Positions 22,231-42,280 of a stretch of DNA of 64,000 nt are shown here, piece by piece. The position numbers and the translations under genes were made by a program. This stretch comes from Pseudarthrobacter naphthalenicus (GTDB lineage: Bacteria; Actinomycetota; Actinomycetes; Actinomycetales; Micrococcaceae), in the NCBI RefSeq assembly GCF_029076445.1, contig NZ_JARESG010000007.1:62001-126000 (forward strand), given 5' to 3'. Below the pieces are notes generated by a model that worked only from the letters and a program-made list of their open reading frames with translations, was not told the origin of the DNA and did not search any database. Numbering within the stretch: the first letter of the stretch is position 1; each line of letters starts with the position of its first letter.

Positions 22231-22313
22231 TAGTGCAGAAACTTTGTGAACCAAGTCACCCGCGCCGGCGCGGCTCCAAGCCGTCCGGCCGTGGCAAACC
22301 TAAGGAGATCCCC

Positions 22314-24184: not shown

Positions 24185-24214
24185 CGGGCGGTCCCGGCAG
24201 CTGCACCGTAGTCA

Positions 24215-24230
24215 GGGCAACCGATTGTAG
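24215..24230. promoter_or_regulatory. Auxiliary LacI half-operator upstream of the ABC transporter
   Basis: Contains CAACCGATTG (24218-24227), the reverse complement of the CAATCGGTTG core found at 24286-24295 and 22195-22204, but with poor outer flanks. It is centred 68 bp from the main operator, compatible with looping. The 24185-24401 gap holds this site, the promoter below and the leader. Confidence 0.5.
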
Positions 24231-24282
24231 GTTGCCTTTACGTGCATCCTGACTCCTTAAATTTCCAATCGTGCAACATTAG

Positions 24283-24321
24283 TGACAATCGGTTGCCAAA
24301 CGTGGCAATCATGCGTACTCT
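24283..24321 (+). promoter_or_regulatory. Promoter with LacI operator over -35 (ABC transporter)
   Basis: Operator TGACAATCGGTTGCCA (24283-24298); right half TTGCCA is the -35, then a 17-bp spacer and -10 TACTCT (24316-24321). A further half-site TGGCAATC follows at 24303-24310 inside the spacer. Leader to the ATG is about 75 nt. Confidence 0.85.
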
Positions 24322-24401
24322 GAATCTCGCAAGGTCGGTGTGGTCCAGGCCACACCGATCGGATTCGTCTCTCTCACGTTCCACAGATTCAGGAGCCAAC
24401 A

Positions 24402-25928
24402 ATGAAGTTAGGTCCCAAGGCGGCAGCAGCCGCTCTTATCGTCAGTGCAGCACTGGCGCTGACCGCCTGCGGAGGCGGCGCCACGGGCGCCAACCCGGCC
24501 GCAGCCAAGACGACCACCCTGACGCTGGGCACCGTCCAGGAAATCCGTTCCTGGGACCCGGCGCAGGCTCACGTGGGCCACATTCTCCAGCCTTACCAGG
24601 CAGCGTATGACTCCCTGCTCCTGAGGCAGCCGGACGGCAAGCTGAGCCCCATGCTGGCCACCGCGTGGAAGTACAACGACACCAACACCAAGCTCACCCT
24701 GGACCTCCGCACGGACGTGACGTTCAGCGATGGAGCCAAGTTCGACGCCGAAGCCGCCAAAGCCAACCTGGACCACTTCAAGACGGCCAACGGCCCGCAG
24801 ATGGCCCAGCTGACCGCTGTCACCGGCGTCACGGTGGTTGATGCCGACACGATCGAGCTCAACCTCACCACCCCGGACCCCTCGCTGGAGTTCTACCTGA
24901 GCCAGGCTGCCGGCCTGATGGGCAGCCCCAAGGCCCTCGGCACCGAAGCCATTAAGACCGAACCAGTGGGCTCCGGCCCCTACGTCATGGACAAGGCCGC
25001 CACGGTCAAGGACTCCCAGTCCGTGTTCACCGCACGCAAGGATTACTGGAACAAGGACCTCCAGAAGTTCCAGAAAGTCACCTTCAAGACCCTGACCGAC
25101 CTGACTGCCCGCACCAACGCCCTCGTCTCGGGCCAGGTGGATGCCACACTGCTGGACCCCAAGACGGGCAAGCAGGCCGAGGGCGCCAAGATGACCCTCG
25201 CCGCGAACCAGGTCGACTGGCAGGGACTGCTGCTGATGGACCGCGACGGTGCCAAAAACGCCCCGCTCGGCAACGTGAAGGTCCGCCAGGCCATCAACTA
25301 CGCGTTCGACCGCAAGACCATCCTTGAGCAGGTCCTGCTGGGCCAGGGCACACCAACCTCGCAGCCTTTCGGCAAGGAAAGCGGAGCCTGGACCGAGGAA
25401 CTTGAAAACTACTACTCCTACGATCCGGCCAAGGCCAAGCAGCTCCTGAAGGAAGCGGGCTACGAAACCGGAGTGACGCTCGAAGTCCCCTCGGTTCCGG
25501 GCTTCGAAACCCAGCTCGCGGTCGTCAAGCAGCAGTTGGCTGACGTTGGGATCACGCTGAACGTAGGCTCTGCCCTTACCAACACCTTCACCTCGGACAT
25601 CGCAGCACAGAAGTTCACCACCATGTACTTCTCGCTCTTCCAGGGCGAGCCGTGGGTGGCCATCAACCAGATCGTCTCCACCAAGGCGCTGTACAACGCG
25701 TTCAAGAACACCACCCCTGAACTGCAGGCCAAGATCGATGCCGTCCAGACCGGCGGCAAGGACGCGGGCAAGCTGGCCCAGGAAGTCAACAAGTACGTGG
25801 TGGAGCAGGCCTGGTTCGCACCCATGTTCCGCGTGAATCAGATGTATTACCACAACTCCAAGGTCACGGTGACGCCTCAGATTCAGCAGGCCGTTCCCTC
25901 GATCTACAACTACGCTCCCGCCTCCTAG
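24402..25928 (+). CDS. Oligopeptide-type ABC transporter substrate-binding lipoprotein (SBP family 5)
   Basis: Extracellular binding protein, 508 residues. Signal MKLGPKAAAAALIVSAALAL with lipobox LTAC (Cys23), then the SBP_bac_5 core: LTLGTVQEIRSWDPAQAHVG, LDLRTDVTFSDGAKFDAEA, GSGPYVMDKA and VKVRQAINYAFDRKTILEQVL. The family binds peptides, nickel or oligosaccharides; the sugar-enzyme context favours an oligosaccharide or glycoside. First gene of the operon running to 31865, with a GC-rich hairpin (25958-25993) separating it from the permeases, which would let the binding protein be made in excess. Confidence 0.93.
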   Translation: MKLGPKAAAAALIVSAALALTACGGGATGANPAAAKTTTLTLGTVQEIRSWDPAQAHVGHILQPYQAAYDSLLLRQPDGKLSPMLATAWKYNDTNTKLTLDLRTDVTFSDGAKFDAEAAKANLDHFKTANGPQMAQLTAVTGVTVVDADTIELNLTTPDPSLEFYLSQAAGLMGSPKALGTEAIKTEPVGSGPYVMDKAATVKDSQSVFTARKDYWNKDLQKFQKVTFKTLTDLTARTNALVSGQVDATLLDPKTGKQAEGAKMTLAANQVDWQGLLLMDRDGAKNAPLGNVKVRQAINYAFDRKTILEQVLLGQGTPTSQPFGKESGAWTEELENYYSYDPAKAKQLLKEAGYETGVTLEVPSVPGFETQLAVVKQQLADVGITLNVGSALTNTFTSDIAAQKFTTMYFSLFQGEPWVAINQIVSTKALYNAFKNTTPELQAKIDAVQTGGKDAGKLAQEVNKYVVEQAWFAPMFRVNQMYYHNSKVTVTPQIQQAVPSIYNYAPAS

Positions 25929-25957
25929 CAGCGGGCCAGCAGCCTCAAACCGGCGCG

Positions 25958-25993
25958 GGTCCGGCGGTCCGCTTCACGGCGGGCCGCCGGACC
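25958..25993 (+). terminator. GC-rich hairpin between binding-protein and permease genes
   Basis: GGTCCGGCGGTCCGC pairs with GCGGGCCGCCGGACC (15 bp, including G-U pairs) around a 6-nt loop, without a U-tract. Probably an mRNA-stabilising or partial-termination structure giving high binding-protein expression. Confidence 0.6.
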
Positions 25994-26030
25994 GGGCACT
26001 CAATACCATGCCTGTTCAATGGAGCCAGCA

Positions 26031-26972
26031 ATGATCCCCTTCATCCTCAAACGCCTCGGCAGCGGAGTCGTAGTGCTGCTTGCCGTCTCGATCCTCACCT
26101 TTTCCCTGCTCTACGTATCGAGCGGCAGCATCGCACGGAACATCCTGGGCGACCAGGCCACACCCGAGCAGCTGGCCGTCAAGGAAGCCGAGTTGGGGCT
26201 TGACCAGCCCATCATCACGCGTTACATCAGCTGGCTGACGGACGCCCTGGGCGGCAACCTGGGTGCCTCCTGGTTCACTTCCGAACCTGTTGCCAATGCC
26301 CTGGCCACCCGCATTCCCGTGACCATGACCATGGTGGTGGTGGCCATGATCCTCATCTCCATCATCGCTACCCTCATTGGCGTGGCCGCGGCCGTCAAGC
26401 GGGGATGGGTGGACCGTGTGGTCCAGATCGGTGCCATCATCGGCGACTCGATCCCCGGGTTCGTCATCGGCATCATCCTGGTGACCATCCTGGCCATCCA
26501 GATGGGCCTGTTCCCCGCCACCAGCACCATTGCACCCGGCGTGGACGCATCCACCTGGGTGTTGTCGCTGACCCTTCCGGTGATCGCCCTGCTCATCAAC
26601 GGCGTTACCGGCGGTGCGCAGCAGATCCGCAGCGCCGTCATTAAGCAGCTCGAACGGGACTACGTCCGCACCCTGCGCAGCCGCGGCATCGGCGAGCGGG
26701 AGGTCCTGTTCAAGCACGTGCTCCGCAGCGCCGCTCCTGCCGGGCTGACCGTGCTGAGCCTCCAACTGATCGGCATGCTCGGTGGCGTCGTCATCCTCGA
26801 ATCGATCTTTGCCCTGCCCGGCATGGGCCCCATGGCTGTCACCGCTACTATCCAGAGCGACCAGCCGGTGGTCATGGGCGTCGTTATGTACACCGTCGCC
26901 GTGGTGATTGTGGTCAACCTGATTGTTGACCTGCTCAACGGCTGGCTCAACCCGAAGGTGCGTGTCTCGTGA
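26031..26972 (+). CDS. ABC transporter permease (DppB/OppB-like)
   Basis: Inner-membrane permease, 313 residues. It begins MIPFILKRLGSGVVVLLAVS, the standard DppB N-terminus, has ELGLDQPIITRYISWL before the core and the EAA loop DYVRTLRSRGIGEREVLFKHVLRSAAPA. The ATG at 26031 follows GGAGCC; an in-frame ATG at 26019 would add four residues. The stop overlaps the start of the permease-ATPase fusion gene by 4 bp. Confidence 0.94.
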   Translation: MIPFILKRLGSGVVVLLAVSILTFSLLYVSSGSIARNILGDQATPEQLAVKEAELGLDQPIITRYISWLTDALGGNLGASWFTSEPVANALATRIPVTMTMVVVAMILISIIATLIGVAAAVKRGWVDRVVQIGAIIGDSIPGFVIGIILVTILAIQMGLFPATSTIAPGVDASTWVLSLTLPVIALLINGVTGGAQQIRSAVIKQLERDYVRTLRSRGIGEREVLFKHVLRSAAPAGLTVLSLQLIGMLGGVVILESIFALPGMGPMAVTATIQSDQPVVMGVVMYTVAVVIVVNLIVDLLNGWLNPKVRVS

Positions 26973-28834
26973 CCGAGTCCGTCGAAACCTCAGCCCTCAC
27001 GCCGCCCCCAGGCAGTCCCGTACCAGGAACGTCCGGTCAGACCGGCACCGTGGTCCGGTCCTCAGCCTTCAAACGCATCCTGAAGAACCCCTTGGGTGTG
27101 GTTGCCCTGGTCATCCTGCTGGGCGTGATCCTGCTCGCAGCGTTCGCAAATGTGCTCGCGCCGTTCGACCAGAACTTCGCCAACATCTCCAAAACACTGG
27201 CCGCCCCCGACGGGGTCAACATCCTCGGTACGGACAGCTCCGGCCGCGACGTCTGGAGCCGGCTCCTTTACGGAGCCCAGCTAACGCTCCTTTCGGCGCT
27301 TCTGTGCGCCGCCGTCGCCATCCTGATCGGCCTGCCCGCCGGCCTCGTGGCCGGCTACTATGCCGGAAAGTTCGAAGCGGTGGCCAACTGGATCGTGGGC
27401 ATCCTGATGAGCCTTCCCGGCTTGATCGTGCTGATGACCATCCGTTCCGCCTTTGGCCCGTCGGTTTGGATTGCCATGATCGCTTTCGGCGTCCTGATCA
27501 GCCCGTCGTACTTCCGCCTGGTGCGCTCCGCCGTGCAGTCGGTACGCAACGAGCTTTATGTTGACGCAGCCCGCGTCTCCGGCCTTTCCGACGTCCGGAT
27601 CATCAGCCGCCACATCTTCTCCGTGGTCCGTGCTCCGATCATCATCCAGACCGCAGCCATCACCGGCGTTGCCATTGCCATCCAGTCCGCGCTGGAATTC
27701 CTGGGGCTGGGCGACCCGGCCAAGGCCACCTGGGGAGTGATGCTGAGCGAAGGCTTCAAAAACGTCTACCTCACCCCGTCCCTGCTCTTCTGGCCAGCTT
27801 TCGCCATGGCCCTGACCATCGGAGCCCTGGTCCTGCTCGGCAACGCAGTCCGCGATGCCCTTGAAGACGGCGAGAAGATCAGGCACCGCAGGAAGAAAAC
27901 GTACGCGGCCCGGGACGCGGCTGCCGCCAGCGCCGCCAAGGCAGCACGCAAGACCATTGCCGCCGTAGAGGCCGGCACGGAACACCACCTGGTCAAGGTG
28001 ACCAACCTGGGCGTCGGCTATCCGCAGGCCGACGGTTCCATCAAGAAGGTGGTGGACGACGTTTCGTTCCACGTTGACCGCGGTGAAATCCTCGGCATCG
28101 TGGGCGAGTCCGGTTCGGGCAAGTCCCAGACCGCCTTCTCGATCCTGGGCCTGCTGCCGGACACTGCACGGATCGTGGCCGGTGCCATCCAGTTCGATGG
28201 CCAGTACACGGTGGCGCCGGGGGAGGACAAAGTCAACCAGAGCCGGCTGTCCAAGCTGCGCGGCAAGCGGATTTCGTACATTCCGCAGGAACCGATGAGC
28301 AACCTGGATCCGGCCTTCACCATCGGCTACCAACTGGTCACCCCCATGGTGCGGGTCCTCGGAATTTCCAAGGCGGAAGCCACCACCCGTGCCATGAAGC
28401 TGCTCTCGGACGTTGGCATCGTCAACCCCGAGCGGACATTCAAGGCCTACCCCCACGAGGTCTCCGGCGGCATGGCCCAGCGCGTGCTGATCGCCGGTGC
28501 CATCAGCTGCGAACCGGACCTCATCATCGCGGACGAGCCCACCACTGCCCTGGACGTGACGGTGCAGGCCGATGTGCTGGACCTCATCCGCGACCTCCAG
28601 CGCCGCCTTGGCGTCGGCGTCATCCTGGTGACCCACAACTTCGGTGTGGTGGCTGACCTGTGCGACCGCGTGGTGGTCATGCAGAACGGACGCCTGGTGG
28701 AGGAAGGCCCCGTCCGGGAGATCCTGCACGAACCGAAGGAACGCTACACCCAGACGCTGCTGGCTTCCATGCTCGAAGGCAAGGAACCGATGACCATGCT
28801 GGTGCCCTCAATGGCAAAGGAGAACGTGCTGTGA
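26969..28834 (+). CDS. Fused ABC permease-ATPase (DppC-DppD in one chain)
   Basis: A 621-residue protein joining a DppC-type permease (about residues 1-300; NILGTDSSGRDVWSRLLYGAQ, coupling loop YVDAARVSGLSDVRIISRHI) to a DppD-type ATPase (about 340-621; Walker A GESGSGKSQT, signature EVSGGMAQRV, Walker B LIIADEPTTALD, H-loop THNFG). They are linked by an Ala/Lys-rich helical segment (AARDAAAASAAKAARK). GTG start, 4-bp overlap with dppB; its own stop overlaps the next ATPase. The fusion keeps permease and ATPase stoichiometry fixed. Confidence 0.93.
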   Translation: MTESVETSALTPPPGSPVPGTSGQTGTVVRSSAFKRILKNPLGVVALVILLGVILLAAFANVLAPFDQNFANISKTLAAPDGVNILGTDSSGRDVWSRLLYGAQLTLLSALLCAAVAILIGLPAGLVAGYYAGKFEAVANWIVGILMSLPGLIVLMTIRSAFGPSVWIAMIAFGVLISPSYFRLVRSAVQSVRNELYVDAARVSGLSDVRIISRHIFSVVRAPIIIQTAAITGVAIAIQSALEFLGLGDPAKATWGVMLSEGFKNVYLTPSLLFWPAFAMALTIGALVLLGNAVRDALEDGEKIRHRRKKTYAARDAAAASAAKAARKTIAAVEAGTEHHLVKVTNLGVGYPQADGSIKKVVDDVSFHVDRGEILGIVGESGSGKSQTAFSILGLLPDTARIVAGAIQFDGQYTVAPGEDKVNQSRLSKLRGKRISYIPQEPMSNLDPAFTIGYQLVTPMVRVLGISKAEATTRAMKLLSDVGIVNPERTFKAYPHEVSGGMAQRVLIAGAISCEPDLIIADEPTTALDVTVQADVLDLIRDLQRRLGVGVILVTHNFGVVADLCDRVVVMQNGRLVEEGPVREILHEPKERYTQTLLASMLEGKEPMTMLVPSMAKENVL

Positions 28835-29736
28835 CCGAAACTGTAGCCCTCAATGCCGCGGAGTCCGTCCCGGCACGCGACGGACTCCTGCGCGTGGAAA
28901 ACCTGGTGGTGGATTATGCGGGCAAGGGCTTCCGGGCCCGGAAGTTCCGCGCCCTGACGGACATCGACATTCATATCGGCCAGGGTGAGACCCTGGGCCT
29001 GGTGGGGGAGTCCGGTTCGGGCAAAACCACCCTCGGCCGCGCGGTCCTGGGCCTGGCCCCGGTCAGCGGCGGCAGGATCACCTTCGAGGGCAAGGACATC
29101 AGCCATGCCAGCCGGAAGGAGCGCCGCGTCCTGAGCCGGGACATGCAGGTGGTCTTCCAGGACCCCTACACCTCGCTGAACCCGGCCCTGGAGATCGGCG
29201 AGATCCTCGCCGAGCCCCTGGGCGTGCAGGGCATGGAAGGCACAGCGGCCAGGAAGCGTGTGCAGGAACTGCTGGACCAGGTTGGCCTGCCCTCGGACGC
29301 CATCCACCGCCTGCCGCGTGAATTCAGCGGCGGCCAGCGCCAGCGCGTAGCGATTGCCCGTGCACTGGCGCTGTCTCCCAAGCTCATCGTCTGCGACGAA
29401 CCGGTCAGTGCACTGGACCTTTCCACGCAGGCCCGCGTCCTGGATCTCTTCCTGCAGATCCAGAAGGACACCGGCGTTTCCTACCTGTTTGTCTCCCACG
29501 ACCTTGACGTGGTCCGCCACATCAGCCACCGTGTGGCCGTGATGTACCGTGGAGAGATCGTGGAGCAGGGGCCGGCAGAGGTTGTCACACGCAGCCCCGA
29601 GCACCCCTACACGCAGCGACTGCTCCTCGCCTCCCCGGTGCCGGATCCGGACCGCCAGGAGAAGCGCCGCGCTGACCGCCACCGCCTGCTCGAAGAACAG
29701 CGGCAGCAGGCCGAACAGGCCGGCGTCCCCGCCTAG
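28831..29736 (+). CDS. ABC transporter ATPase (DppF/OppF-like)
   Basis: Second ATPase of the importer, 301 residues: Walker A GESGSGKTTLGRAVLG, Q-loop VVFQDPYTSLNP, signature REFSGGQRQRVAIARAL, Walker B LIVCDEPVSALD, H-loop FVSHDLDVVRHI, and a C-terminal SPEHPYTQRLLLASP typical of the OppF class. The GTG at 28831 overlaps the fusion gene stop as GTGA; the longer in-frame ORF from 28660 is inside that gene and rejected. With the fused ATPase it makes a heterodimer. Confidence 0.95.
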   Translation: MTETVALNAAESVPARDGLLRVENLVVDYAGKGFRARKFRALTDIDIHIGQGETLGLVGESGSGKTTLGRAVLGLAPVSGGRITFEGKDISHASRKERRVLSRDMQVVFQDPYTSLNPALEIGEILAEPLGVQGMEGTAARKRVQELLDQVGLPSDAIHRLPREFSGGQRQRVAIARALALSPKLIVCDEPVSALDLSTQARVLDLFLQIQKDTGVSYLFVSHDLDVVRHISHRVAVMYRGEIVEQGPAEVVTRSPEHPYTQRLLLASPVPDPDRQEKRRADRHRLLEEQRQQAEQAGVPA

Positions 29737-29785
29737 GCCGTCCCGCAACCAACTCAACAGCAGCAAACAACAATGGAGGGCTAAC

Positions 29786-30655
29786 ATGGCCACATCAGCC
29801 AAAATTGGCGTACAGGCAATGATGCTGAAGGACAGCTTCGCCGAAGCCGGGGCATTCGAAACGCTCCGCAAGGTCAGCGAAATCGGCTACAACGCCGTCG
29901 AGATCTCCCAGATCCCGATGACGCCGGAGAACGTGGCTGAGCTGGACCGGTCCCGCACCGAACTGGGCATGGACATCGCGGCACTGTCCGTGGCCATGGA
30001 GACCCCCAAGGGACGCCCGGGCGACTCGCTGGCGGAGCACTTCGACAAGATCGTTGAGGACGCCAAGCGGCTGGACTCCAAACTGCTGCGGATCGGCATG
30101 CTGCCGTTCTCGGCCATGACCTCAATCGGGGCGGTGGTTGACTTCGCCAAACAGGCCAACGACTACGCCGAACGCCTTCAGGAGCAGGGCCTGGGCCTGT
30201 ATTACCACAACCACCACATCGAGTTCGCGAAGTTCGACGGCAAGTACATGCTGGACATCATCGCCGAGAACTCCCCGGCCATGGGCATGGAAATTGACGT
30301 GCACTGGGTCCAGCGCGGCGGCCTGGACCCGGTCCGCACCCTGGAAAAGTACGCCGGCCGCACGGCGATGGTGCACCTTAAGGACTACCGGATCGGGGTC
30401 ATGCCGGAGTCCGCACTGGGGCTCCTGGATGCCGGGGATTTCGCCGGCTTTATGACCGAGTTCAAGAACGTTGTCCAGTTCGCCGAAGTAGGCGAGGGCA
30501 ACCTTGACTTTGCCGCCATCATCCCGGCCGCGCAGGCCGCCGGCGCCGAGTACCTCCTGGTGGAACAGGACGAGCTCTACGGCCGCACCGTCTGGGAAGC
30601 GCTGCAGACCTCCTACGACAACCTCGTTGCGCTGGGCCAGTCCGAACTCTTCTAA
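29786..30655 (+). CDS. Sugar phosphate isomerase/epimerase-like TIM-barrel protein (module 2)
   Basis: 289-residue TIM-barrel metal enzyme. Motifs include GYNAVEISQIPM, YYHNHHIEFAKFDGKYMLD, MEIDVHWVQRGG, TAMVHLKDYRIG and EYLLVEQDE, supplying the Glu/Asp/His metal ligands. It is more like the inosose-dehydratase/3-keto-glycoside-lyase-type subgroup than module 1 and is not a close copy of it. GGAGGG precedes the ATG. It lies 49 bp after the transporter ATPase and 43 bp before the second Gfo/Idh gene, within the same operon. Confidence 0.9.
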   Translation: MATSAKIGVQAMMLKDSFAEAGAFETLRKVSEIGYNAVEISQIPMTPENVAELDRSRTELGMDIAALSVAMETPKGRPGDSLAEHFDKIVEDAKRLDSKLLRIGMLPFSAMTSIGAVVDFAKQANDYAERLQEQGLGLYYHNHHIEFAKFDGKYMLDIIAENSPAMGMEIDVHWVQRGGLDPVRTLEKYAGRTAMVHLKDYRIGVMPESALGLLDAGDFAGFMTEFKNVVQFAEVGEGNLDFAAIIPAAQAAGAEYLLVEQDELYGRTVWEALQTSYDNLVALGQSELF

Positions 30656-30698
30656 CCCCGTCCCCGACGACGCACCACAGAAAAAGGAGATTCAATTC

Positions 30699-31865
30699 AT
30701 GAGCAAGAAAGTACGCCTCGGCATCATCGGCCTGGGCCAGCAGGGCGGCGCCTACGCCAAGTTCATCACGGACGGACTGGTCCCCAACATGGAGATCGGC
30801 GCCATCTGCGACATCGACCCGGCCAAGAAGGAGCTTGCAGCTTCCACCTACCCGGACGTGCCCTTCTACGAGGACTACATCACCATGCTGGAAAGTGGTG
30901 ACGTGGACGCCGTCGTCACCTGCGTTCCGCACTTCCTGCACCCTGAGATGGGCATCGAGACGCTCAAGCGCAACATCCACGCCCTGGTGGAGAAGCCGGC
31001 CGGCGTGTACACCAAGCAGGTCAAGGAACTCAACGAGTTCGCTGCCACCAAGCCGGAGCTGACGTTCGGCATCATGTTCAACCAGCGCAACAACCCGCTG
31101 TACCAGAAGCTCAAGGAGATTGTGGCGAACGGCGAGATCGGCAAGATCCGCCGCACCAACTGGATCATCACCACCTGGTGGCGGCCGCAGGGCTACTACA
31201 ACTCCAGTGCGTGGCGTGCAACGTGGGGCGGCGAGGGCGGCGGCGTCCTGGTCAACCAGGCACCGCACCAGCTGGACCTGTGGCAGTGGATCTGCGGCGT
31301 GCCCAAGTCGGTGTACGCGAAGGTGGCGTTCGGCTTCCGGCGCGACATCGCCGTCGAGGATGAAGTGACGGCAGTGGTGGACTACGGCGACGGCGCAACC
31401 GGCGTTTTCGTCACGGCCACACACGATCTGACCGGCACGGACCGCTTCGAAATCCTGGGCGACCAGGGCAAGATCGTGGTCGAAAACAGCAAGACGGCCA
31501 CCGTCACCCGGCTGCACAAGCCCGAGCGCGAGCTCAGCGAAGGCATGGACATGGACGATGTCCGCAAGCTCTTTATGGGCGAGCTGAACCCGGAGCAGTA
31601 CTACACCACCGAGGTCATCGAGTTTGAGTCCGCCTGGGGTGCCCAGCACTCCGGCGTGCTGGAGAACTTCGCCGCCAACATCCTGGACGGAACCCCCCTG
31701 CTGGCCCCGGGCTCGGACGGCATCAACGGTGTGCGGCTGGCCAACGCCATCCACCTCTCCGCCTGGACCGGCAAGGAAGTGGGACTGGACTTCGACGAAA
31801 ACGAGTTCCTCGCGGAGCTCAACAAGCGCATCGCCGAAGAGGGCAAATTCCCGCAGCGCGCCTGA
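30699..31865 (+). CDS. Gfo/Idh/MocA-family oxidoreductase (module 2)
   Basis: NAD(P)-linked sugar oxidoreductase, 388 residues: Rossmann motif LGIIGLGQQGGAYAKFI, HALVEKPAGVYTKQ with the catalytic Lys, then WWRPQGYYNSSAWRATWGGE and GGVLVNQAPHQLDLWQWICG with the catalytic His. The WWRPQ.YY.S..WR.TW segment marks a subgroup distinct from inositol dehydrogenase and resembles enzymes that oxidise glycosides at C3; that comparison is from memory. AAGGAG precedes the ATG. Last gene of the transporter operon, with a terminator at 31892-31937. Confidence 0.92.
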   Translation: MSKKVRLGIIGLGQQGGAYAKFITDGLVPNMEIGAICDIDPAKKELAASTYPDVPFYEDYITMLESGDVDAVVTCVPHFLHPEMGIETLKRNIHALVEKPAGVYTKQVKELNEFAATKPELTFGIMFNQRNNPLYQKLKEIVANGEIGKIRRTNWIITTWWRPQGYYNSSAWRATWGGEGGGVLVNQAPHQLDLWQWICGVPKSVYAKVAFGFRRDIAVEDEVTAVVDYGDGATGVFVTATHDLTGTDRFEILGDQGKIVVENSKTATVTRLHKPERELSEGMDMDDVRKLFMGELNPEQYYTTEVIEFESAWGAQHSGVLENFAANILDGTPLLAPGSDGINGVRLANAIHLSAWTGKEVGLDFDENEFLAELNKRIAEEGKFPQRA

Positions 31866-31972: not shown

Positions 31973-33031
31973 GTGACTGAACCCAAGACCCCGGATGCCG
32001 GCACCGCTGCCGGCGCGGCCAAAAAACACGGCCGGGACGGAAAATCCAACGCAACGATTTACGACATCGCGAGGATTGCCGGCGTCAACGCCTCCACGGT
32101 TTCACGGGCACTCAGCAAGCCCGGCCGGGTGAGTCCCAAAACTCAGAAGCTGATCGAGGATGCGGCCGCCGAGCTGAACTACCACGTGAACCCGTTTGCC
32201 CGCGCCCTTCCCACCGGGAAGACAAACACCTTCGGCCTGATCGTCGCGGACATCACCAACCCCACCTTCTTCGACATTATCCGCGGCGCGGAAACCACCG
32301 CGACGGACCGTGACTACACCCTGGTGCTTGCCGAATCGGCCGAGTCCCCGGCAACGGAACTGACCGCCGCCCGCCGCCTGATGGCCACCGTGGACGGCCT
32401 CATCCTGGCGAGCCCCCGCATGGACGACGACAATATCCGCGCCCTGGCCCGGGACAAGCCGGTAGTGGTCATCAACCGCGAAGTGGAGGGTGTGCCGTGC
32501 GTAGTGCCGGACGTGCACAAGGGGCTCAGCGAGGCAGTCCGCAGCCTGGCCGGGAACGGCCACCACAAGATCGCCTACGTTGCGGGGCCGCCGGAGTCCT
32601 GGATGTCCGAGCGGCGCTGGGAAGGCGTGCAGGCGGCCAGCGAATGGTCCCGGCTCGAGGCAGTCCGGCTGGAATCCACCAAACCAACGGTCGACGGCGG
32701 CCGGCAGACGGCGCGTGATGTCCGCGCCAGCGGTGCCACGGCAGTGCTGACATACAACGATCTTCTGGCGATTGGCCTCATGCAGGAACTCCAGGCCGCC
32801 GGGATATCGGTGCCGGACCAGATCAGCATCGTTGGCTTCGATGACATCTTCGGTGCGGACTTCACGACGCCGCCACTGACCACCGTGCGTTCGCCGCTGG
32901 GGGAGTGCGGCGCCGGCGCCGCCACCCGCCTCCTGGATCTGCTGCACGGAACCGGCGAACCGGCCGGCACCCTGAGTGTGGAGACGGAGCTTGTCCTCCG
33001 CGGTTCGAGCGGACGGATGCTGTCCGCCTGA
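31973..33031 (+). CDS. LacI-family regulator (hexuronate region)
   Basis: 352-residue repressor. HTH ATIYDIARIAGVNASTVSRA, hinge HVNPFARALPTGKT, effector domain with FGLIVADITNPTFFDIIRGAE, TYNDLLAIGLMQ and IVGFDDIFGADFTTPPLTTV. A 24-residue disordered Ala/Lys N-terminal tail precedes the HTH. No Shine-Dalgarno sequence precedes the GTG; a -10 lies 6 nt away, so it is probably leaderless. It sits between the transporter operon and uxaC and may control both, or only itself. Confidence 0.92.
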   Translation: MTEPKTPDAGTAAGAAKKHGRDGKSNATIYDIARIAGVNASTVSRALSKPGRVSPKTQKLIEDAAAELNYHVNPFARALPTGKTNTFGLIVADITNPTFFDIIRGAETTATDRDYTLVLAESAESPATELTAARRLMATVDGLILASPRMDDDNIRALARDKPVVVINREVEGVPCVVPDVHKGLSEAVRSLAGNGHHKIAYVAGPPESWMSERRWEGVQAASEWSRLEAVRLESTKPTVDGGRQTARDVRASGATAVLTYNDLLAIGLMQELQAAGISVPDQISIVGFDDIFGADFTTPPLTTVRSPLGECGAGAATRLLDLLHGTGEPAGTLSVETELVLRGSSGRMLSA

Positions 33032-33059: not shown

Positions 33060-33109
33060 TGGCAATTTTTGGCAACCGGTTGACAAAAGCGGGGACCAGG
33101 CCGGATTAT
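33060..33109 (+). promoter_or_regulatory. Promoter with LacI operator over -35 (uxaC), leaderless
   Basis: Half-site TGGCAA at 33060-33065, then the full operator TGGCAACCGGTTGACA (33070-33085) exactly 10 bp further. Its right half TTGACA is a consensus -35; -10 GATTAT lies at 33104-33109 (18-bp spacer). The uxaC ATG begins 6 nt after the -10 and has no Shine-Dalgarno sequence. Confidence 0.85.
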
Positions 33110-33115
33110 TGACCT

Positions 33116-34522
33116 ATGTCACAGTCGATTGCTGCCAACCCAGACAGGCTCCTGCCCGCGGATCCAGGAACGCGCAGCATCGCGCGCGACCTTCTTCAGC
33201 GCGTCCAGGACCTCCCCATCATCTCCCCGCACGGCCACGTTGACGCTGCTGTCATCGAAAACAACACCTCCTTTCCTGATCCGGCGGCGCTGCTGGTCAG
33301 CCCGGACCACTACGTCACCCGGCTGATCCACGCCAGCGGCGTCCCCCTGGACAAGCTCCGCGCGGGCGGAACCAGCACGCCCGAATCAAGGGATATCTGG
33401 CGCACCTTCGTTGCAGCGTGGCCGCTTTTCGAGGGCACGGCGTCCGGCTACTGGCTGCGCACCCAGTTCGACAGCGTCTTCGAGCTGGGCGCAGACCTCG
33501 GCGAGATGTCCGCTGACGCAAGCTACGACGCCATTGCCGCCAAGCTGGTTGAGCCCGGGTTCCGTCCGCGCCAGCTTTTCAAGGACTTCAACATCGAGGT
33601 CCTGGCCACCACCGACGATCCACTGGACAACCTGGCCAGCCATAAGGCGATCGCCGAGGACCCGACCTTCGCCGGCCGGGTCCTGCCGACGTTCCGCCCG
33701 GACCAGTACCTGAACATCGCGCACCCCGCCTGGGGCGCCAACGTGGACCGGCTGATCGACGCCGCCGGCGACGGCGCCACCGGCTACAGCGCCTATATCA
33801 CGGCCCTGGAGAACCGCCGCCGGTACTTCGTGGAGCACGGCGCCGTCTCCGCCGACCACGGCGTGGCCACCCCCGCCACGCTGAAGCTGGAGCGTGCCGA
33901 GGCTGAGCGGATCTTCGAACTCGCCCGGGCCGGGAAGGCCACTGCTGAGGACCGCAACACCTTCGAAGCCCACATGATGTACGAGATGGGCCGCATGTCG
34001 GTGGAGGACGGGCTGGTCATGACCATCCACCCGGGCTCCTTCCGCAACCACCACACGCCCACGTTCGAGGCATTCGGCGCCGACACCGGCCATGACATCC
34101 CATACGCCGTGAACTACACCGAGGCCATCCGCCCGCTGCTGCAGGACTTCGGCACGGCGAAGGACTTCCACCTGGTGCTGTTCACGCTGGACGAGACCGT
34201 GTTCTCCCGCGAACTCGCGCCCCTGGCGGGTTTCTACCCGTCCGTCTACCTTGGTGCACCGTGGTGGTTCCTGGACGCTCCCGATGCGATGCTGCGCTTC
34301 CGCTCCGCCGTCACGGAGACCACCGGGTTCTCCCGCTCCTCCGGCTTCATCGATGACACCCGCGCCTTCTGCTCCATCCCCGCCCGCCACGACGCATCCC
34401 GCCGGATCGAAGCCGCTTTCCTGGCCCGGCTCGTGGCCGAGCACCGTGTCAGTGAGGACCGTGCCCACGAAATTATCGTGGACATCGTCGATTCGTCCCC
34501 GCGAAGGGTATTCAAACTGTGA
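33116..34522 (+). CDS. uxaC: Glucuronate isomerase
   Basis: Isomerises D-glucuronate to D-fructuronate (or galacturonate to tagaturonate), the entry to hexuronate catabolism. The 468-residue amidohydrolase-fold protein has ISPHGHVDAAVIENNTSF with the paired His, FNIEVLATTDDPLDNLA, MTIHPGSFRNHH and APWWFLDAPDAMLRFR, ending in DSSPRRVFKL. Length is typical. It is coupled by a 4-bp overlap to the dehydrogenase downstream and driven by the LacI-controlled promoter at 33060-33109. Confidence 0.95.
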   Translation: MSQSIAANPDRLLPADPGTRSIARDLLQRVQDLPIISPHGHVDAAVIENNTSFPDPAALLVSPDHYVTRLIHASGVPLDKLRAGGTSTPESRDIWRTFVAAWPLFEGTASGYWLRTQFDSVFELGADLGEMSADASYDAIAAKLVEPGFRPRQLFKDFNIEVLATTDDPLDNLASHKAIAEDPTFAGRVLPTFRPDQYLNIAHPAWGANVDRLIDAAGDGATGYSAYITALENRRRYFVEHGAVSADHGVATPATLKLERAEAERIFELARAGKATAEDRNTFEAHMMYEMGRMSVEDGLVMTIHPGSFRNHHTPTFEAFGADTGHDIPYAVNYTEAIRPLLQDFGTAKDFHLVLFTLDETVFSRELAPLAGFYPSVYLGAPWWFLDAPDAMLRFRSAVTETTGFSRSSGFIDDTRAFCSIPARHDASRRIEAAFLARLVAEHRVSEDRAHEIIVDIVDSSPRRVFKL

Positions 34523-36003
34523 CTACCGAACAGACCAGTCCCGACCAGACCAGTCCCGACCAGACCAGCACCGACCATGTCAGCCCCGACCAGGTCAGTT
34601 CAGCCGCCGGATCGAAAGACCTTCCGCAGCTGAACCGGACCCTCCACGCGGCCCCCAAGCCGCCGGTCCGGATCGTCCACCTCGGGCTCGGCGCCTTCCA
34701 CCGCTCGCACCAGGCCTGGTTCACCAGCCAGGCCGGCGACGCCGCGGAGTGGGGCATCGCGGCCTTCACGGGACGCCGCCCGGACGCCGCCCTGGCACTT
34801 GCCGAGCAGGACGGACTCTTCACGCTGGTGGAGCGCGCTGACAGCGGCGACTCGTTCGCCGTCGTCGGAAGCATTGCCGAAGCGGTGGACGGCGCGGACG
34901 TGCCGCGGCTCGCCGAACTGGTTGCAGCACCCGCTACCGCCATGGTCACGCTGACCGTCACCGAAGCCGCGTACCGGCTCGGTGCCGACGGGCAGCTTGA
35001 TGTCAACGCGTCCGACGTCGCGGCGGACCTTGAGCTGCTGAAGTCAGGCACCGGAAACCCGTCGACGCCGCTGGGCCGGTTGGTCTTTGCCCTCGCCGCC
35101 CGCCGGGCTGCCGGAACCGGACCCATGGCGGTGGTCTGCTGTGACAACCTCGCCAACAACGGCACCGTTGCCCACAACGCCGTGACCGGCCTCGCCGCTG
35201 CCTGGGACGCGGACCTCGCCGCCTGGATTGAGGCGAACGTCAGCTTTGTCAGCACGTCGGTGGACCGCATCACGCCGCGCACCACCGAAGCCGACATCGC
35301 CGCCGTCGAGGCCGCATGCGGGTACCACGACAACTCGCCGGTTGTTGCCGAACCTTTCACCAACTGGGTGCTCAGCGGGGACTTCCCGGCCGGGCGGCCG
35401 CGCTGGGAAGATGCCGGCGCGGTGTTCGTGGACCACATCGAGCCTTTCGAGAACCGCAAGCTGTGGCTCCTGAACGGCGCCCATTCCCTGCTGGCGTACG
35501 CCGGTCAGCTCCGCGGCCACACCACCGTGGCCGAAGCCCTGGCCGACGCGGAGTGCCGAAAGGCCGTGGAATCGTTCTGGGACGAGGCGGAGAGCAACCT
35601 GTCCGGCGCGGCAGCCGCCGGCGCCGACCTGCAGATTCCGGCCTACCGCGACGCCCTGCTGGCCCGGTTCAGCAATGCACGGATCGCCCACCACCTGGCC
35701 CAGATCGCGATGGACGGCAGTACCAAACTCCGGATGCGGGCGGTGCCGGTGCTGCTGGCCGAGCGCGCCCAAGGACGGTCCGGAGCTGCTGCCGCACTGA
35801 TGATTGCCGCCTGGATGGACTTCACCGCAGCAGCCGAGGCGTTCCATGATCCGCTCGCGGCCGAGGTCTCGGCGGCCAACACGCTCGAAGGCGCCGAACG
35901 GGTTGGGGCCCTGCTGGCGCTCATTGATCCGGCCCTGGCTGCCGATGAGGCCGTGGTGGAGTTCGTTGCCGGCCTGCTCGGAACTTTCACCGCAGGCTCC
36001 TAG
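34519..36003 (+). CDS. uxuB: Mannitol-dehydrogenase-family oxidoreductase, probable D-fructuronate reductase
   Basis: NAD-dependent reduction of fructuronate to mannonate, linking uxaC to mannonate dehydratase. The 494-residue long-chain dehydrogenase has IVHLGLGAFHRSHQAWF (dinucleotide binding), VVCCDNLANNG, FVSTSVDRITP and FENRKLWLLNGAHSLLAY with the catalytic Lys and His. Its first 29 residues are a tandem TSPDQ-like repeat absent from the family core and probably disordered. GTG start overlapping uxaC by 4 bp. The uronate context favours UxuB over mannitol or arabitol dehydrogenase. Confidence 0.9.
   Translation: MTTEQTSPDQTSPDQTSTDHVSPDQVSSAAGSKDLPQLNRTLHAAPKPPVRIVHLGLGAFHRSHQAWFTSQAGDAAEWGIAAFTGRRPDAALALAEQDGLFTLVERADSGDSFAVVGSIAEAVDGADVPRLAELVAAPATAMVTLTVTEAAYRLGADGQLDVNASDVAADLELLKSGTGNPSTPLGRLVFALAARRAAGTGPMAVVCCDNLANNGTVAHNAVTGLAAAWDADLAAWIEANVSFVSTSVDRITPRTTEADIAAVEAACGYHDNSPVVAEPFTNWVLSGDFPAGRPRWEDAGAVFVDHIEPFENRKLWLLNGAHSLLAYAGQLRGHTTVAEALADAECRKAVESFWDEAESNLSGAAAAGADLQIPAYRDALLARFSNARIAHHLAQIAMDGSTKLRMRAVPVLLAERAQGRSGAAAALMIAAWMDFTAAAEAFHDPLAAEVSAANTLEGAERVGALLALIDPALAADEAVVEFVAGLLGTFTAGS
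34531..34605 (+). repeat. Tandem 15-bp repeat encoding TSPDQ units
   Basis: Five consecutive 15-bp units: 34531-34545 and 34546-34560 are identical (CAGACCAGTCCCGAC), 34561-34575 differs at two bases, the next two are progressively decayed. In frame they encode QTSPD, QTSPD, QTSTD, HVSPD, QVSSA, so copy-number change would keep frame. Confidence 0.9.
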
Positions 36004-36277: not shown

Positions 36278-37696
36278 ATGAAAAAGCTAAACAAGCTCAG
36301 CATTGTCGGCTATGGCGCCGGTGATGCCGCAAACAACCTCGCCTTCACTACGGCCACCATGTTCCTGCTCGTGTATTACACGGATGTCGCCGGTATCTCC
36401 GCAGCGGCCGCCGGAACCCTGCTGCTTGTGGTCCGTTTGTTTGACGCCTTCGCTGACGTTTTCGCCGGCCGGATCGTGGACCGGACCTACAGCAAGCGCT
36501 TCGGCAAGTTCCGCCCCTTCATCATGTTCGGCTCCATTCCGCTGCTCCTGCTGAGCATGGCAGTCTTTTCCGTCCCGCAGATCGGTGAATCCGGCGCCCT
36601 GCTGTACGCGTATGTCACCTACGCCGCCCTTGGCCTGGCCTACAGCCTCGTAAACATTCCCTATGGTTCGCTGGCGGGCGCCATGACCCAGGATCCGGGT
36701 GAGCGCGCCAAACTCGGCTCGGCCCGCATGGTGGGTGCCCTGCTGGTCAGTTCCGGCCTGGGCATCTTCGTGGCACCGCTGATCAAGCCCGGCGCCGACC
36801 TCCAGACCACGTTCACCACCATCACCCTGGTCTTTGTCGTGATCGGTACGGCGCTTTACTTCTTCACGGCACTGACCGCCAAGGAACGCGTCCACCGCGA
36901 GGTCCCCAACGTGACCCTCAAGCAGAGCCTGGACACGCTCAAGACCAACAAGCCCCTGCTGATGCTGTGCCTGAGCTCCTTCTTCTTCCTCACCGGCTAC
37001 CTGGCCCTCACGTCCGTGCAGCTGTACTACCTGCGCGACGTCCTGGGCCGGCTGGACCTTTACCCCGTCCTGTCCATCATTCAGCTGGCCCTGACCTTCG
37101 TGCTCGCCGCGTTCATGCCCAAACTGGTCCGCAATGTCGGCAAAAAGCGCGTCTACATCTACTCCTCGCTCATCAGCGTGGCAGGCGGCGCGATCATCTT
37201 CTTCACCCCGGCCAGCCAGGTCTGGCTCGGCTTCAGCGGCCTGGTCATCAGCGTGGTGGGCGTCCTGGCGGTCAACATCGTGGTCTGGGCCCTGGAAGCG
37301 GACACCGTGGAATACGGCGAATGGAAGACCGGCGTCCGCACCGAGGGCATCACCTACGCACTGTTCTCCTTCACCCGTAAGTCCGGCCAGGCCGTGGGAG
37401 GCGCCCTCGCCGCCTACGCCCTCGCCCTGGGCGGCTACAAGTCCGGCGGCGCGACGCAGACTGCCGATGCCGTGTTCGGCATCCAGATTGCTGCCGGTGC
37501 GCTCCCGGCCGTATTGACTATCCTTGCGGTACTGGTCATGACCAAGTACACCCTCACTGACGCCAAGCACGCGGAAATCCTCCAGGAAATCCAGTCCCGC
37601 CGCACCAAAACGGCATCTGCCGGCACTCCGGCCGACGCCGGCCAGCCGGCCGATGCTGCCACCCCAGCCCACGCCGGCACGCCCGCCGGCCGATAA
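36278..37696 (+). CDS. GPH-family sugar:cation symporter (glucuronide transporter-like)
   Basis: Twelve-span secondary transporter, 472 residues, of the MelB/UidB/XynP group. Diagnostic stretches are [61 protein letters not shown] and [20 protein letters not shown]. It takes up a glycoside or uronide with a cation. The C-terminal tail of about 30 residues is an Ala/Pro/Gly repeat ([13 protein letters not shown]) of no known role. It heads the operon with mannonate dehydratase and the gluconokinase-GH3 fusion, so a uronide is the likely cargo. Confidence 0.92.
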
Positions 37697-37740: not shown

Positions 37741-38970
37741 GTGAAAATCATTGCCGCTGAGGTGTTCGTGACAAGCCCGTCGCGTAACTTCGTGACCCTG
37801 CGCATCACAACGGACGATGGAGTCACCGGCATCGGTGACGCCACGCTGAACGGCCGCGAACTGGCTGTCGCCGCCTACCTCAAGGAGCATGTTGCACAGC
37901 TGCTGATCGGCAAGGATCCGCACAAGATCGAGGACACCTGGCAGTTCCTGTACCGCAGCTCGTACTGGCGCCGCGGCCCGGTCACCATGGCGGCCATCGC
38001 CGCCGTGGACATGGCCCTGTGGGACATTAAGGGCAAGATGGCCAACATGCCCGTCTACCAGCTCCTCGGCGGTGCCTCACGCAACGGCCTGCGCGCCTAC
38101 GGCCACGCATCCGGCTCGGACATCGAGTCGCTGTTCGACTCCGTCCGCGAGCACCTGGAACTGGGCTACAAGTCCGTCCGCATCCAGACCGCCGTCCCCG
38201 GCATCAAGGCCGTCTACGGTGTTGCTGCGCAGGCACAAGCCTCAGGTGAACGCTACGACTACGAGCCCGCCGGCCGCGGTGCCTTCCCGGTGGAAGAGGA
38301 TTGGGACACCCGCGCCTACCTGCGCCACCTGCCCACCGTTTTCGAAGCCGTGCGCAACGAGTTCGGCGCGGAACTGCCGCTCCTGCACGACGGCCACCAC
38401 CGCATGACCCCCATCCAGGCCGCCAAGCTCGGCAAGGCCCTGGAACCGTACGACCTCTTCTGGCTCGAGGACTGCACCCCGGCCGAAAACCAGGAAGCCC
38501 TTCGCCTGGTCCGCCAGCACACCACCACCCCGCTGGCCATCGGTGAAATCTTCAACACCGTGTATGACTACCAGACCATCATCAAGGAACAGCTTATTGA
38601 CTACGTCCGCGCAGCCTCCACCCACTTCGGCGGCATCTCCCCGCTGAAGAAGGTCATGGACTTCGCGGCCCAGTACCAGATCAAGTCAGGCTTCCACGGC
38701 CCCACGGACATCTCCCCGGTGGGCTTCGCGGCCCAGCTCCACGTGGGCCTGGCCATCCACAACTACGGCATCCAGGAATACATGCAGCACTCGGACAAGA
38801 CCAACGAGGTCTTCGAACAGTCCATGACATTCGTTGACGGCTACCTGCACCCGGGCGACAAGCCCGGCATCGGCGTCGAATTCAACGAGGAAGCCGCAGC
38901 GGCCTACCCGTACCAGCAGGCCTACCTGCCATACAACCGCCTGGTTGACGGCACTGTGCATGACTGGTGA
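37741..38970 (+). CDS. manD: Mannonate dehydratase, enolase-superfamily type (ManD)
   Basis: Dehydrates D-mannonate to 2-keto-3-deoxygluconate; 409 residues, not homologous to UxuA. The N-terminal capping domain begins [22 protein letters not shown]; the barrel has [52 protein letters not shown] and [22 protein letters not shown] at 37741 after GAAAGG. It completes uxaC to uxuB to manD for glucuronate. High-activity ManD is the best match, but some family members are poor gluconate dehydratases. Confidence 0.93.
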
Positions 38971-41347
38971 GGCACCCGTGGTGATCAGCAACAACACCGC
39001 CCCTGCCCCCGAAGGCAGGCCGGGCCCGCGCGTCATCGTCATGGGCGTCTCCGGCTGCGGCAAGACCACCATCGGTGACCTTGTGGCCCGTGAACTGGGG
39101 GTGCCGTTCCTGGACGGCGACTCCCTGCACCCGGTGGAGAATGTCGCCAAGATGGCCGCCGGCACCCCGCTGACCGACGAGGACCGGTGGCCGTGGCTCG
39201 CCACGGTGGGTTCGGAACTGGCGGCCGCCGGCAGCGGCGGACTGGTCCTGGCCTGCTCGGCCCTGCGCCGCAGCTACCGGGACGCCATCCGCGCCGAGGC
39301 GCCGGACACGATCTTCCTCCACCTGCACGGCAGCAAAGAGGTCCTGAAAGCCCGCACCGAAGGCCGTTCCGGGCACTTCATGCCGCCTGCCCTGCTCGAA
39401 TCACAGCTCGCCACCCTCGAACCGCTGGAAGCGGACGAGGTGGGCGTTGTGGTGGACATCGCCGGGCCGGTGACCCAGGTGATGGCCGACGCGCTGGCGG
39501 GAATCGCCACCGCAGCGAAGGCAGCCAGCGGCAGCCCCGCCGTCGGGAGCCCGGCAGGTACCTCCGGGAGCGGCACCCCCGCTGCCGTCGGCACCCAGGC
39601 CCGCCAGTTCGACGTCGACCTTAAGGCCGCGCCGTTCAACCTCGATGACGCTGCGGTTGAGTGGGTGAACAGCACCCTGGAATCCATGACGCTTGAGGAG
39701 AAGATCGGCCAGCTCTTCATCAACCACAACAACGACTACTCCCCGGAGTACCTCGACGGTGTGCTGGAGAACTACCACGTGGGCGGCATGCGTTACCGGC
39801 CGGGGCCCTCGGGCGCTGTCCAGGAGCACATCCGTTACGCGCAGTCCAAGTCCAAAGTGCCGCTGCTGGTGGCGTCCAACCCGGAAATGGGTGGCGCCGG
39901 AAGCTGCGATGACGGCACGTTTGTGTCCACGCACCTGCAGGCCGGATCGCACCCGGACAAGTCCATCGCACGCAAGATGGGACAGGTGGCCGGGGTTGAG
40001 ACTGCCGCCCTGGGCTGCAACTGGGCTTTCGCGCCGATCGTGGACATCCACTACAACTGGCGCAACACGGTCATCTCCACCCGGTCGTTCGGCAACACCC
40101 CGGAAATCGTGGTGGAGCGCGCTAAGGAGTACTTCGACGGCATCACTGAGTCACCCACCGCCTGCGCCATGAAGCACTTCCCCGGCGACGGTGTGGACGA
40201 GCGCGATCAGCACGTGGTTACGTCCTACAACACCTTCGGCTATGAGGAGTGGAACAAAACCTACGGGCACGTGTACCGGGAGATGATCGGGCGCGGCGTG
40301 CAGTCGATCATGATCGGCCATATCGGCGCGCCCGGGCTGTCCCGGCACTTCCGTCCGGGCATGGCGGACAAGGACATCAAGCCCGCCACGCTGGCCCCGG
40401 AACTGCTGCAGGACCTGCTCCGCGGCGAGCTCGGCTTCAACGGGCTGATCCTGACGGATGCCTCGCAGATGATCGGGCTGACCCAGGCCATGAAGCGCAA
40501 GGACCTGGTCCCTGCCACCATCGCCGCGGGGTGCGACATGTTCCTGTTCTTCCGCAACCCGGCGGAGGATTTCCAGTACATGCTGGACGGCTACAAGTCC
40601 GGCATCATCACCGAGCAGCGCCTGCACGACGCCCTGCGCCGCATCCTGGCGCTGAAGGCCTCGCTGGGGCTGCACCGCAAGGAACGCAGCGAACTGGTTC
40701 CGCCGGTGGAGGCCCTGGCCAGGATCGGCAGCGCGGCACACCGTGCCGTTGCCGCCGAGGTGGCGGACAAGACCGTCACCCTCGTCAAGGACACCGCGAA
40801 CAACCTGCCCATCACGCCGGAAACGCACAAACGGATCCGCCTGTACGGCATCTCCGGTGACTCGGACTTCACCCGCGCTGACCCGTTGGCCTACCTGGAC
40901 AAGGTCAAGGTTGAGCTGGAGAAAGCCGGCTTCGAGGTGCACCTGTTCAAGACCGCAGCCCAGCGTGAAGCCGCGGGGGAGACCGGCATCAACTTCATGA
41001 CCGTCATCTCCGAGGAAGCCACAGGGGATTACGCGGACAAGTATGACGCCGCGTTCGTCTTCGCCAACGTCAAGGGCTTCGCCCAGGAAGCGGCTATCCG
41101 CATCAAGTGGTCCACCCCCATGGCGGCCGAGATCCCGTGGTACGTCACCGAGGTTCCCACTGTGCTGGTGTCGCTGAACCAGCCCAACCACCTCATCGAT
41201 GTGCCGATGGTCAAGACCGCCATCCACACGCACGCCGATTCCGTGGAGGCCATCCGGGCCACGATCGAAAAGATCATGGGCAGGTCCGAGTTCCAGGGGA
41301 CGTTCAATGAGAACGTCTTCTGCGATTCCTTCGACACCCGGCTCTGA
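38960..41347 (+). CDS. Gluconokinase-GH3 glycoside hydrolase fusion
   Basis: A single 795-residue chain with two enzymes. Residues about 20-190 are a complete GntK-type gluconokinase: P-loop GVSGCGKTT (29-37), [62 protein letters not shown]. An Ala/Gly/Ser/Pro linker ([20 protein letters not shown]) leads to a GH3 glycosidase (about 215-795) with [14 protein letters not shown], nucleophile Asp in [13 protein letters not shown], and a C-terminal alpha/beta domain ending FCDSFDTRL. No signal peptide, so cytoplasmic. ATG at 38960 overlaps manD; GTG at 38978 or 38981, with GGTGAGG upstream, may be the real start. The reading frame is uninterrupted across the junction. Substrate unknown; a beta-glycoside of gluconate would suit both halves. 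Confidence 0.9.
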
Positions 41348-42216: not shown

Positions 42217-42280
42217 TCCAGACGCGCGTTTCGGCAACTGCCGGACCCCGTGAACCTCGACCTCTGAGGAGTACCAGTAC

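Follow-up and report, generated by a model that had tools for sequence, protein, structure and literature searches.

In a 64,000-nucleotide stretch of the Pseudarthrobacter naphthalenicus genome (contig NZ_JARESG010000007.1, positions 62,001 to 126,000; hereafter the window), one gene encodes a GntK/IdnK-type kinase and a glycoside hydrolase of family GH3 within a single chain. This join is confirmed as real. We consider it likely that the product serves a beta-glucuronide/glucuronate operon with two enzymes in one protein, the GH3 half cleaving imported beta-glucuronides and the GntK-family kinase acting late in the route on a sugar acid derived from them. An earlier note on this DNA had recognized the fusion and assumed that gluconate is handed over between its halves; the fusion holds, while the handover finds no support in the gene contexts described below.

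A conserved kinase-GH3 fusion

The gene is a single open frame, running unbroken from the ATG at 38960 to the TGA at 41347, and its translation matches both the gluconokinase profile TIGR01313 and the GH3 profile PF00933. Its first 11 bases are shared with the 3' end of the mannonate dehydratase gene, whose stop codon occupies 38968-38970. The P-loop, the motif at residues 405-418 and the GH3 nucleophile (D500) lie where the earlier note had placed them:

38960..41347, + strand: fusion gene, 795 aa, kinase, linker and GH3 (translation, family profiles, AlphaFold model)
39029..39526, + strand: GntK/IdnK-type kinase domain, residues ~24-189 (TIGR01313, above cut-off; PDB 3t61, 4eun and 1knq by sequence)
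39044..39070, + strand: P-loop GVSGCGKTT, residues 29-37 (translation; G34, K35 and T37 identical in 114/114 kinases compared)
39527..39607, + strand: flexible linker rich in Ala, Gly, Ser, Thr and Pro (AlphaFold model and linker comparison)
39608..41344, + strand: GH3 domain of BglP type, residues ~217-795 (5vqd, phmmer E 3e-120; VIA-align Z 54.8 to 5vqe over 545 residues)
40172..40213, + strand: catalytic loop motif, residues 405-418, with the K405-H406 pair and the acid-base residues D416/H418 (alignment)
40457..40459, + strand: putative nucleophile Asp500 in LTDASQM (identical in all rows aligned; role by homology)

The AlphaFold model of the 795-residue chain reached a mean predicted local distance difference test score (pLDDT) of 85.8. 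Values below 50 fell on residues 1-15, on the disordered linker (192-214) and on the GH3 loops 366-373, 413-416 and 707-712. Since residues 413-416 belong to the catalytic loop, the shape of this loop is not reliably modelled. Across the fused loci the linker measures 15-53 residues (44 by the same measure in the window protein) and has no conserved core, as for a tether.

The distribution of the fusion was evaluated in a sample of 198 genomes of the genus, with counts taken by hand from the match table and then rechecked. One match spanning both halves was found in 106 of them, three of which carry a stop or a truncated gene, leaving 103. Nine more genomes with a more diverged kinase part proved to be fused on reading their loci, giving an unbroken fusion in at least 112/198 genomes, a good part of these being single-contig assemblies. 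Five genomes with a sufficiently long frame, whose loci were not read, stand outside this count, and in six others the fusion is broken or located at a contig edge. One genome (G063) contains two fusion copies with identical scores (C25:49711-52098 and C29:13611-15998). The fused form is the commonest one in the genus and separate genes also exist; relatives that always carry two genes, which the earlier note would have taken as a refutation, are thus not what the search revealed.

Within the same family, two genomes of other genera are fused as well. Among further family members outside the genus, ManD, kinase and GH3 are adjoining separate genes in one genome, GH3 lies directly 3' of ManD with no kinase in the locus in a second, the kinase sits inside a uronate operon with GH3 elsewhere in a third, and only broken pieces occur in a fourth. 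In G951, a genome of another family, kinase and GH3 occupy opposite ends of one gene cluster, the unfused GH3 being followed by Gfo/Idh, TIM-barrel and ABC genes and these by UxaC-UxuB-GPH-ManD-kinase. Furthermore, the kinase appears as its own gene next after ManD, with no GH3, in 14 operons of 13 genomes, two of which also hold the fusion elsewhere. Both kinase clades occur fused as well as single in the trees, and fused and single GH3s are intermixed, so that the fusion may have arisen once or more than once. In agreement with the earlier note, which knew of no described enzyme of this kind, no account of a kinase-GH3 fusion was found in the open-licence literature; we regard it as a real, conserved fusion that brings a known pair of families into this arrangement.

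The GH3 half and its link to glucuronides

PF00933 covers the GH3 barrel at residues 244-564 (190.4 vs. 27 bits, E 7e-56), and a single solved protein aligns with residues 221-795, namely the retaining beta-glucoside phosphorylase BglX/BglP (5vqd). The structural comparison, which covered residues 228-792, identified 5vqe as best match (root mean square deviation 2.4, 37% identity), followed, apart from 5vqd, by Bacillus YbbD (NagZ) with a Z of 45. D416 and H418 align with BglX and provide a His/Asp acid-base in place of Glu/Asp, as in the BglP/Nag3 class of retaining GH3 phosphorylases (PMC8950772). K405, H406, D416, H418 and D500 are identical in all GH3 rows aligned, the first four being also found in BglX, and the catalytic residues are kept in 54/54 close relatives. 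Asp500 is presumably the nucleophile, by homology to GH3 enzymes.

Position 503 is more variable. Q503 of the window protein equals the BglX residue; the close relatives have Gln in 41/54, Leu in 12 and Ala in one case, and the distant group has His in 82/82. We take it to align with the specificity Gln of BglP, whose change to Ser reportedly swaps specificity. N255 and F531, in turn, are present in all 137 rows (54/54, 82/82 and 1/1, near-duplicates included) of those groups that have glucuronate genes or a HAD protein as neighbours, not every row having both kinds. They occur in 0/8 members of the family associated with beta-phosphoglucomutase or an ABC importer, and not in BglX.

The fusion gene closes a LacI-UxaC-UxuB-glucuronide transporter-ManD operon:

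31973..33031, + strand: LacI-type regulator, operon head (PF00356 and PF13377; same position in most family operons read)
33116..34522, + strand: UxaC glucuronate isomerase (NF002794, 558.8 vs. 387 bits)
34519..36003, + strand: UxuB-like fructuronate reductase (PF01232/PF08125; best NCBIfam NF011611, below its cut-off)
36278..37696, + strand: GPH-family glucuronide transporter (NF007353, 642.9 vs. 528 bits)
37744..38970, + strand: ManD D-mannonate dehydratase, start codon not settled (NF043051, 689.2 vs. 550 bits; 3' end overlaps the fusion gene)

Glucuronide cleavage in bacterial operons of this sort is usually credited to UidA-type enzymes, and no UidA (GH2 beta-glucuronidase) was found in the window. 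We tabulated 40 operons of the family; since these operons are not independent of each other and entered the table through a match to the kinase or to GH3, the p values are only a guide. All 22 transporter-bearing operons encode GH3 and/or UidA (GH3 in 15, UidA in 5, both in 2), while the 18 operons without transporter have GH3 in eight and neither enzyme in ten cases (Fisher, 5e-5). Considering only the 33 operons without UidA, GH3 is present in 15/15 with transporter vs. 8/18 without (Fisher, 5e-4). In some relatives UidA is located between UxuB and the transporter of the same operon, the one in L119 scoring above the beta-glucuronidase cut-off (882.8 vs. 544 bits).

The analysis was extended to distant loci, namely the best 80 of 548, hosting GH3 relatives 53-84% identical to an Actinomycetaceae-type member. 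Their neighbours (tblastn E<=1e-10 within the flanks, some matches being weak at 21-35% identity) included a HAD protein in 58/80, a GPH transporter in 41/80, UxaC and UxuA in 37/80 each, UidA and Eda in 31/80 each, and KdgK in 30/80. This GH3 subfamily, often accompanied by glucuronide genes, spans Actinomycetota, Bacillota (among them Streptococcus and Clostridium genomes) and Pasteurellaceae. Operon and distant loci together establish a genetic link of the GH3 half to glucuronide import and glucuronate catabolism, the context of a beta-glucuronidase function, and with a glucuronide transporter and a glucuronate isomerase in its company, the sugar acid to be expected is glucuronate and not gluconate. 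A conserved cluster of genes devoted to beta-glucuronide and glucuronate is known from Streptococcus, with cleavage credited to a UidA-type enzyme and GH3 absent from the available part of that paper (PMC3102119); from species and genes, we infer that the Streptococcus loci found here correspond to this cluster.

Whether the GH3 half uses water or phosphate was considered separately. According to a review (PMC8950772), the phosphorylases of family GH3 work with a His/Asp dyad and release beta-sugar phosphates; the window protein and every GH3 row aligned have this dyad. Members of the same GH3 subfamily are fused behind a HAD domain in another family of the order (L086, L087, L097, L113); in L086 this domain exceeds the beta-phosphoglucomutase cut-off (216.8 vs. 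189.4 bits), and a like gene stands alongside GH3 in L085 and L114. A beta-glucose 1-phosphate product would require such a partner. The HAD neighbour of the distant loci, a different protein (L082:10867-11784 and homologues), carries DxD and GDxxxD motifs and matched HAD_2 in 5/5 cases, plus one stray weak match. Its model is weak (pLDDT 63.3, 5 rows), with HAD phosphatases and beta-phosphoglucomutases as best fold matches at low template modelling scores, and a PDB profile search gave nothing convincing; it may be a phosphatase or a mutase. No relatives of this protein or of beta-phosphoglucomutase appeared in the window or the family loci searched, a result for those loci and not for whole genomes.

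UxaC, which needs free glucuronate, counts against phosphorolysis in the window, as does the lack of such HAD relatives in the window and the family loci searched. The residues shared with BglP and the HAD-type partners of relatives make it a live alternative to hydrolysis, and we rate the two as about even. More tentatively, the GH3 half might belong to an undescribed, widespread class of beta-glucuronide phosphorylases, a possibility to which we give less than even weight. The product would be beta-glucuronate 1-phosphate, which a nearby HAD protein would dephosphorylate or isomerize elsewhere, the lineage of the window having a fused sugar-acid kinase instead. No account of glucuronate-1-phosphate together with a glycoside phosphorylase was found in the open-licence literature.

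The kinase half and competing explanations

TIGR01313 matches residues 26-180 with 181.9 bits, well above its curated cut-off of 113.75, and the core GntK/IdnK motifs are kept across the kinase domain, assigning it to the gluconokinase family; its fold was checked by sequence only. The fused and single operon kinases fall on one side of a branch with an SH-aLRT of 100, the two GntP-adjoining gluconokinases of the own genome on the other. The L105 row, although labelled single in this tree, comes from a fusion with a broken frame, and gene context was read for a minority of the gluconokinase rows. Its occurrence without GH3 in 14 operons suggests that the kinase does not rely on any GH3 product there and is a component of the hexuronate route as such. 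Two family genomes carry the operon kinase in a second copy, 3' of GH3 (L090:8510-9376, L091:6988-7602).

Residues specific to this clade include G39, D52, S55 and A98 (114 kinases compared). They give no substrate, because the Asp of position D52 is shared by E. coli GntK. Three candidates fit the route: mannonate, for which a kinase activity of L. suebicus is a precedent (PMC6978723), gluconate after a 2-epimerase, as with the mannonate/gluconate 2-epimerase GntE (PMC7583248), or 2-keto-3-deoxygluconate (KDG). No GntE-type epimerase turned up in the operon, although no search was aimed at one.

ManD directly 5' of the kinase in the operons read argues for KDG, whereas the patchy occurrence of Eda and KdgK genes argues against KDG as a universal substrate. 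The own genome encodes an Eda and PfkB pair elsewhere, the PfkB scoring below the KDG-kinase cut-offs. This PfkB type was detected in 62/198 genomes of the genus (E<=1e-70), the Eda type in 73/198 (E<=1e-40). The presence of PfkB does not track the fusion: among the 126 genomes in which the GH3 half was detected at high identity, broken cases counted as well, 45 encode this PfkB. Among 80 genomes with the GH3 half and without the Eda/KdgK type of the own genome, 67 have a PF01081 aldolase, six scoring >200 bits, and 13 have none, which speaks against 2-keto-3-deoxy-6-phosphogluconate there, unless another aldolase family serves. In view of these patchy genes and the 13/80 genomes lacking the aldolase, the idea that the kinase half acts solely as a KDG kinase was kept as a candidate and not adopted.

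From these contexts we infer substrates for both halves. The C-terminal GH3 would cleave imported beta-glucuronides as the first step, presumably in the cytoplasm, because its partner kinase needs ATP. The N-terminal kinase would phosphorylate a six-carbon sugar acid arising from the released glucuronate, late in the route, be it mannonate, gluconate made from mannonate, or KDG. If this pathway is right, the two halves are separated by the steps of UxaC and UxuB and perhaps by that of ManD or an epimerase, so that direct channelling is not expected; the fusion would hold a first and a late enzyme in fixed ratio, with no shared intermediate passed.

Several observations weigh against this view. 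GH3 occurs without transporter or UidA in 8/40 operons, and the fusion gene is frame-broken in 4 of the 23 GH3-bearing operons counted (L103, L104, L105, L112; outside the intact-fusion counts). No residue binding the C6 carboxylate was pinpointed, N255 and F531 standing as signature positions only. In the kinase half the gluconokinase motifs are kept and the clade-specific positions single out no other substrate; given the Eda and PfkB pair, it need not be a KDG kinase in the own genome. Finally, GH3 and UidA coexist in L100, L132 and 31/80 distant loci, showing that GH3 is not a plain substitute for UidA.

This coexistence would be explained if the GH3 half removed glucose or another neutral sugar from a glucuronate aglycone (an aldobiuronic disaccharide), phosphorolysis yielding beta-glucose 1-phosphate and free glucuronate for UxaC. 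BglP is a glucoside phosphorylase, Q503 matches its residue, and the GH3s of the other family are fused to a domain of beta-phosphoglucomutase, the enzyme of beta-glucose 1-phosphate. However, positions 255 and 531 separate glucuronate- and HAD-linked GH3s from those linked to beta-phosphoglucomutase, Q503 is not kept among relatives, the transporter exceeds the cut-off of a glucuronide transporter model, and no beta-phosphoglucomutase relative was detected in the window or the family loci searched. We therefore judge this explanation rather unlikely. Improbable, too, is a GH3 half that drifted to an unrelated scavenging role and stays in the operon solely to be co-regulated: part of the genus lacks the fusion or has it broken, and its linker is unconserved, yet the catalytic residues are kept in all 54 close relatives and similar neighbours recur in other phyla.

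In the model of the earlier note, gluconate is set free by GH3 from a glycosyl-gluconate, for example cellobionate, and is channelled to the kinase, which converts it to 6-phosphogluconate. The two domains in one chain, the gluconokinase family of the kinase and the action of the GH3 relative BglP on glucosides (PMC8950772) are in line with this model, which is nevertheless very improbable. The kinase stands alone in 14 operons, GH3 lacks it in L089 and both are apart in G951; the operon encodes glucuronide import and glucuronate breakdown; two other GntK genes of the genome each lie beside a GntP-family permease; and UxaC is found near GH3 relatives in 37/80 loci (best 80 of 548). Its aside on a uronide relative gains support from the glucuronide transporter and UxaC, its gluconate release does not, so that the interpretation as a whole is partly supported. 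An assembly or frame artefact, for which nothing was found, is practically negligible given the unbroken fusions, many in single-contig assemblies.

Neighbouring genes and known systems

Upstream of the operon the window contains a further cluster; in G951 a similar one separates the unfused GH3 from the uronate genes:

22278..31865, + strand: TIM-barrel and Gfo/Idh genes and a peptide-type ABC importer

Within it, 26969-28834 joins an ABC permease (OppC type) and an ATP-binding subunit (OppD type) in one 621-residue chain, with matches of 571-606 residues in L079 (G951), L097, L113 and L114. A promoter-like site at 33080-33109, directly 5' of UxaC, consists of consensus matches only and was not used as evidence. 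Downstream, a TetR-type regulator and a fatty-acid desaturase (41494-43486, named by eye) precede a 619-residue frame at 43643-45502 that combines an FAD-dependent oxidoreductase with the orotate phosphoribosyltransferase PyrE, both above cut-off. The two are separate frames in L119 and L123, and the PyrE part is alone in L094; in L108, L119 and L123 the oxidoreductase follows directly, with no TetR/desaturase genes between.

Compared with known systems, the GH3 half resembles BglP/BglX (PDB 5vqd, 5vqe) over its full length, including the His/Asp dyad, the nucleophile and Q503. BglP/BglX has no kinase and carries Glu instead of Asn at position 255. SN243 (PDB 7qe1, 7qea), reportedly a GH3 beta-glucuronidase, shows by its PDB entry title a GH3 fold with bound fluorescein di-beta-glucuronide, so this fold can take glucuronides, even though it shares just 19% identity with the GH3 half (Z 34). 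In the beta-phosphoglucomutase-GH3 fusions (L086, L087, L097, L113), a phosphosugar enzyme likewise precedes a GH3 of this subfamily (39-42% identity); there, however, the N-terminal partner is a HAD domain resembling beta-phosphoglucomutase, genes of an ABC importer adjoin, and uronate probes hit none of the loci.

The kinase domain corresponds in its whole length and core motifs to the gluconokinases GntK/IdnK (3t61, 4eun, 1knq), differing by its separate branch, its glucuronate operon and its mostly fused state; it offers an example of a GntK-family kinase with mannonate or KDG as possible substrates. A gluconate-kinase-like activity late in a hexuronate route is shared with the L. suebicus/GntE route, where, in the available part of PMC7583248, no GH3 is seen and the kinase is an activity whose gene is not pinned down. 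The natural unfused controls correct the tempting reading that fusion means channelling. The more interesting lead is a GH3 subfamily often found with glucuronide genes and equipped with phosphorylase-type catalytic residues. The GH2 beta-glucuronidase UidA, of another GH family, shares the operon in some relatives; if our proposal is true, a second, possibly phosphorolytic, enzyme beside UidA would change how glucuronide operons are read.

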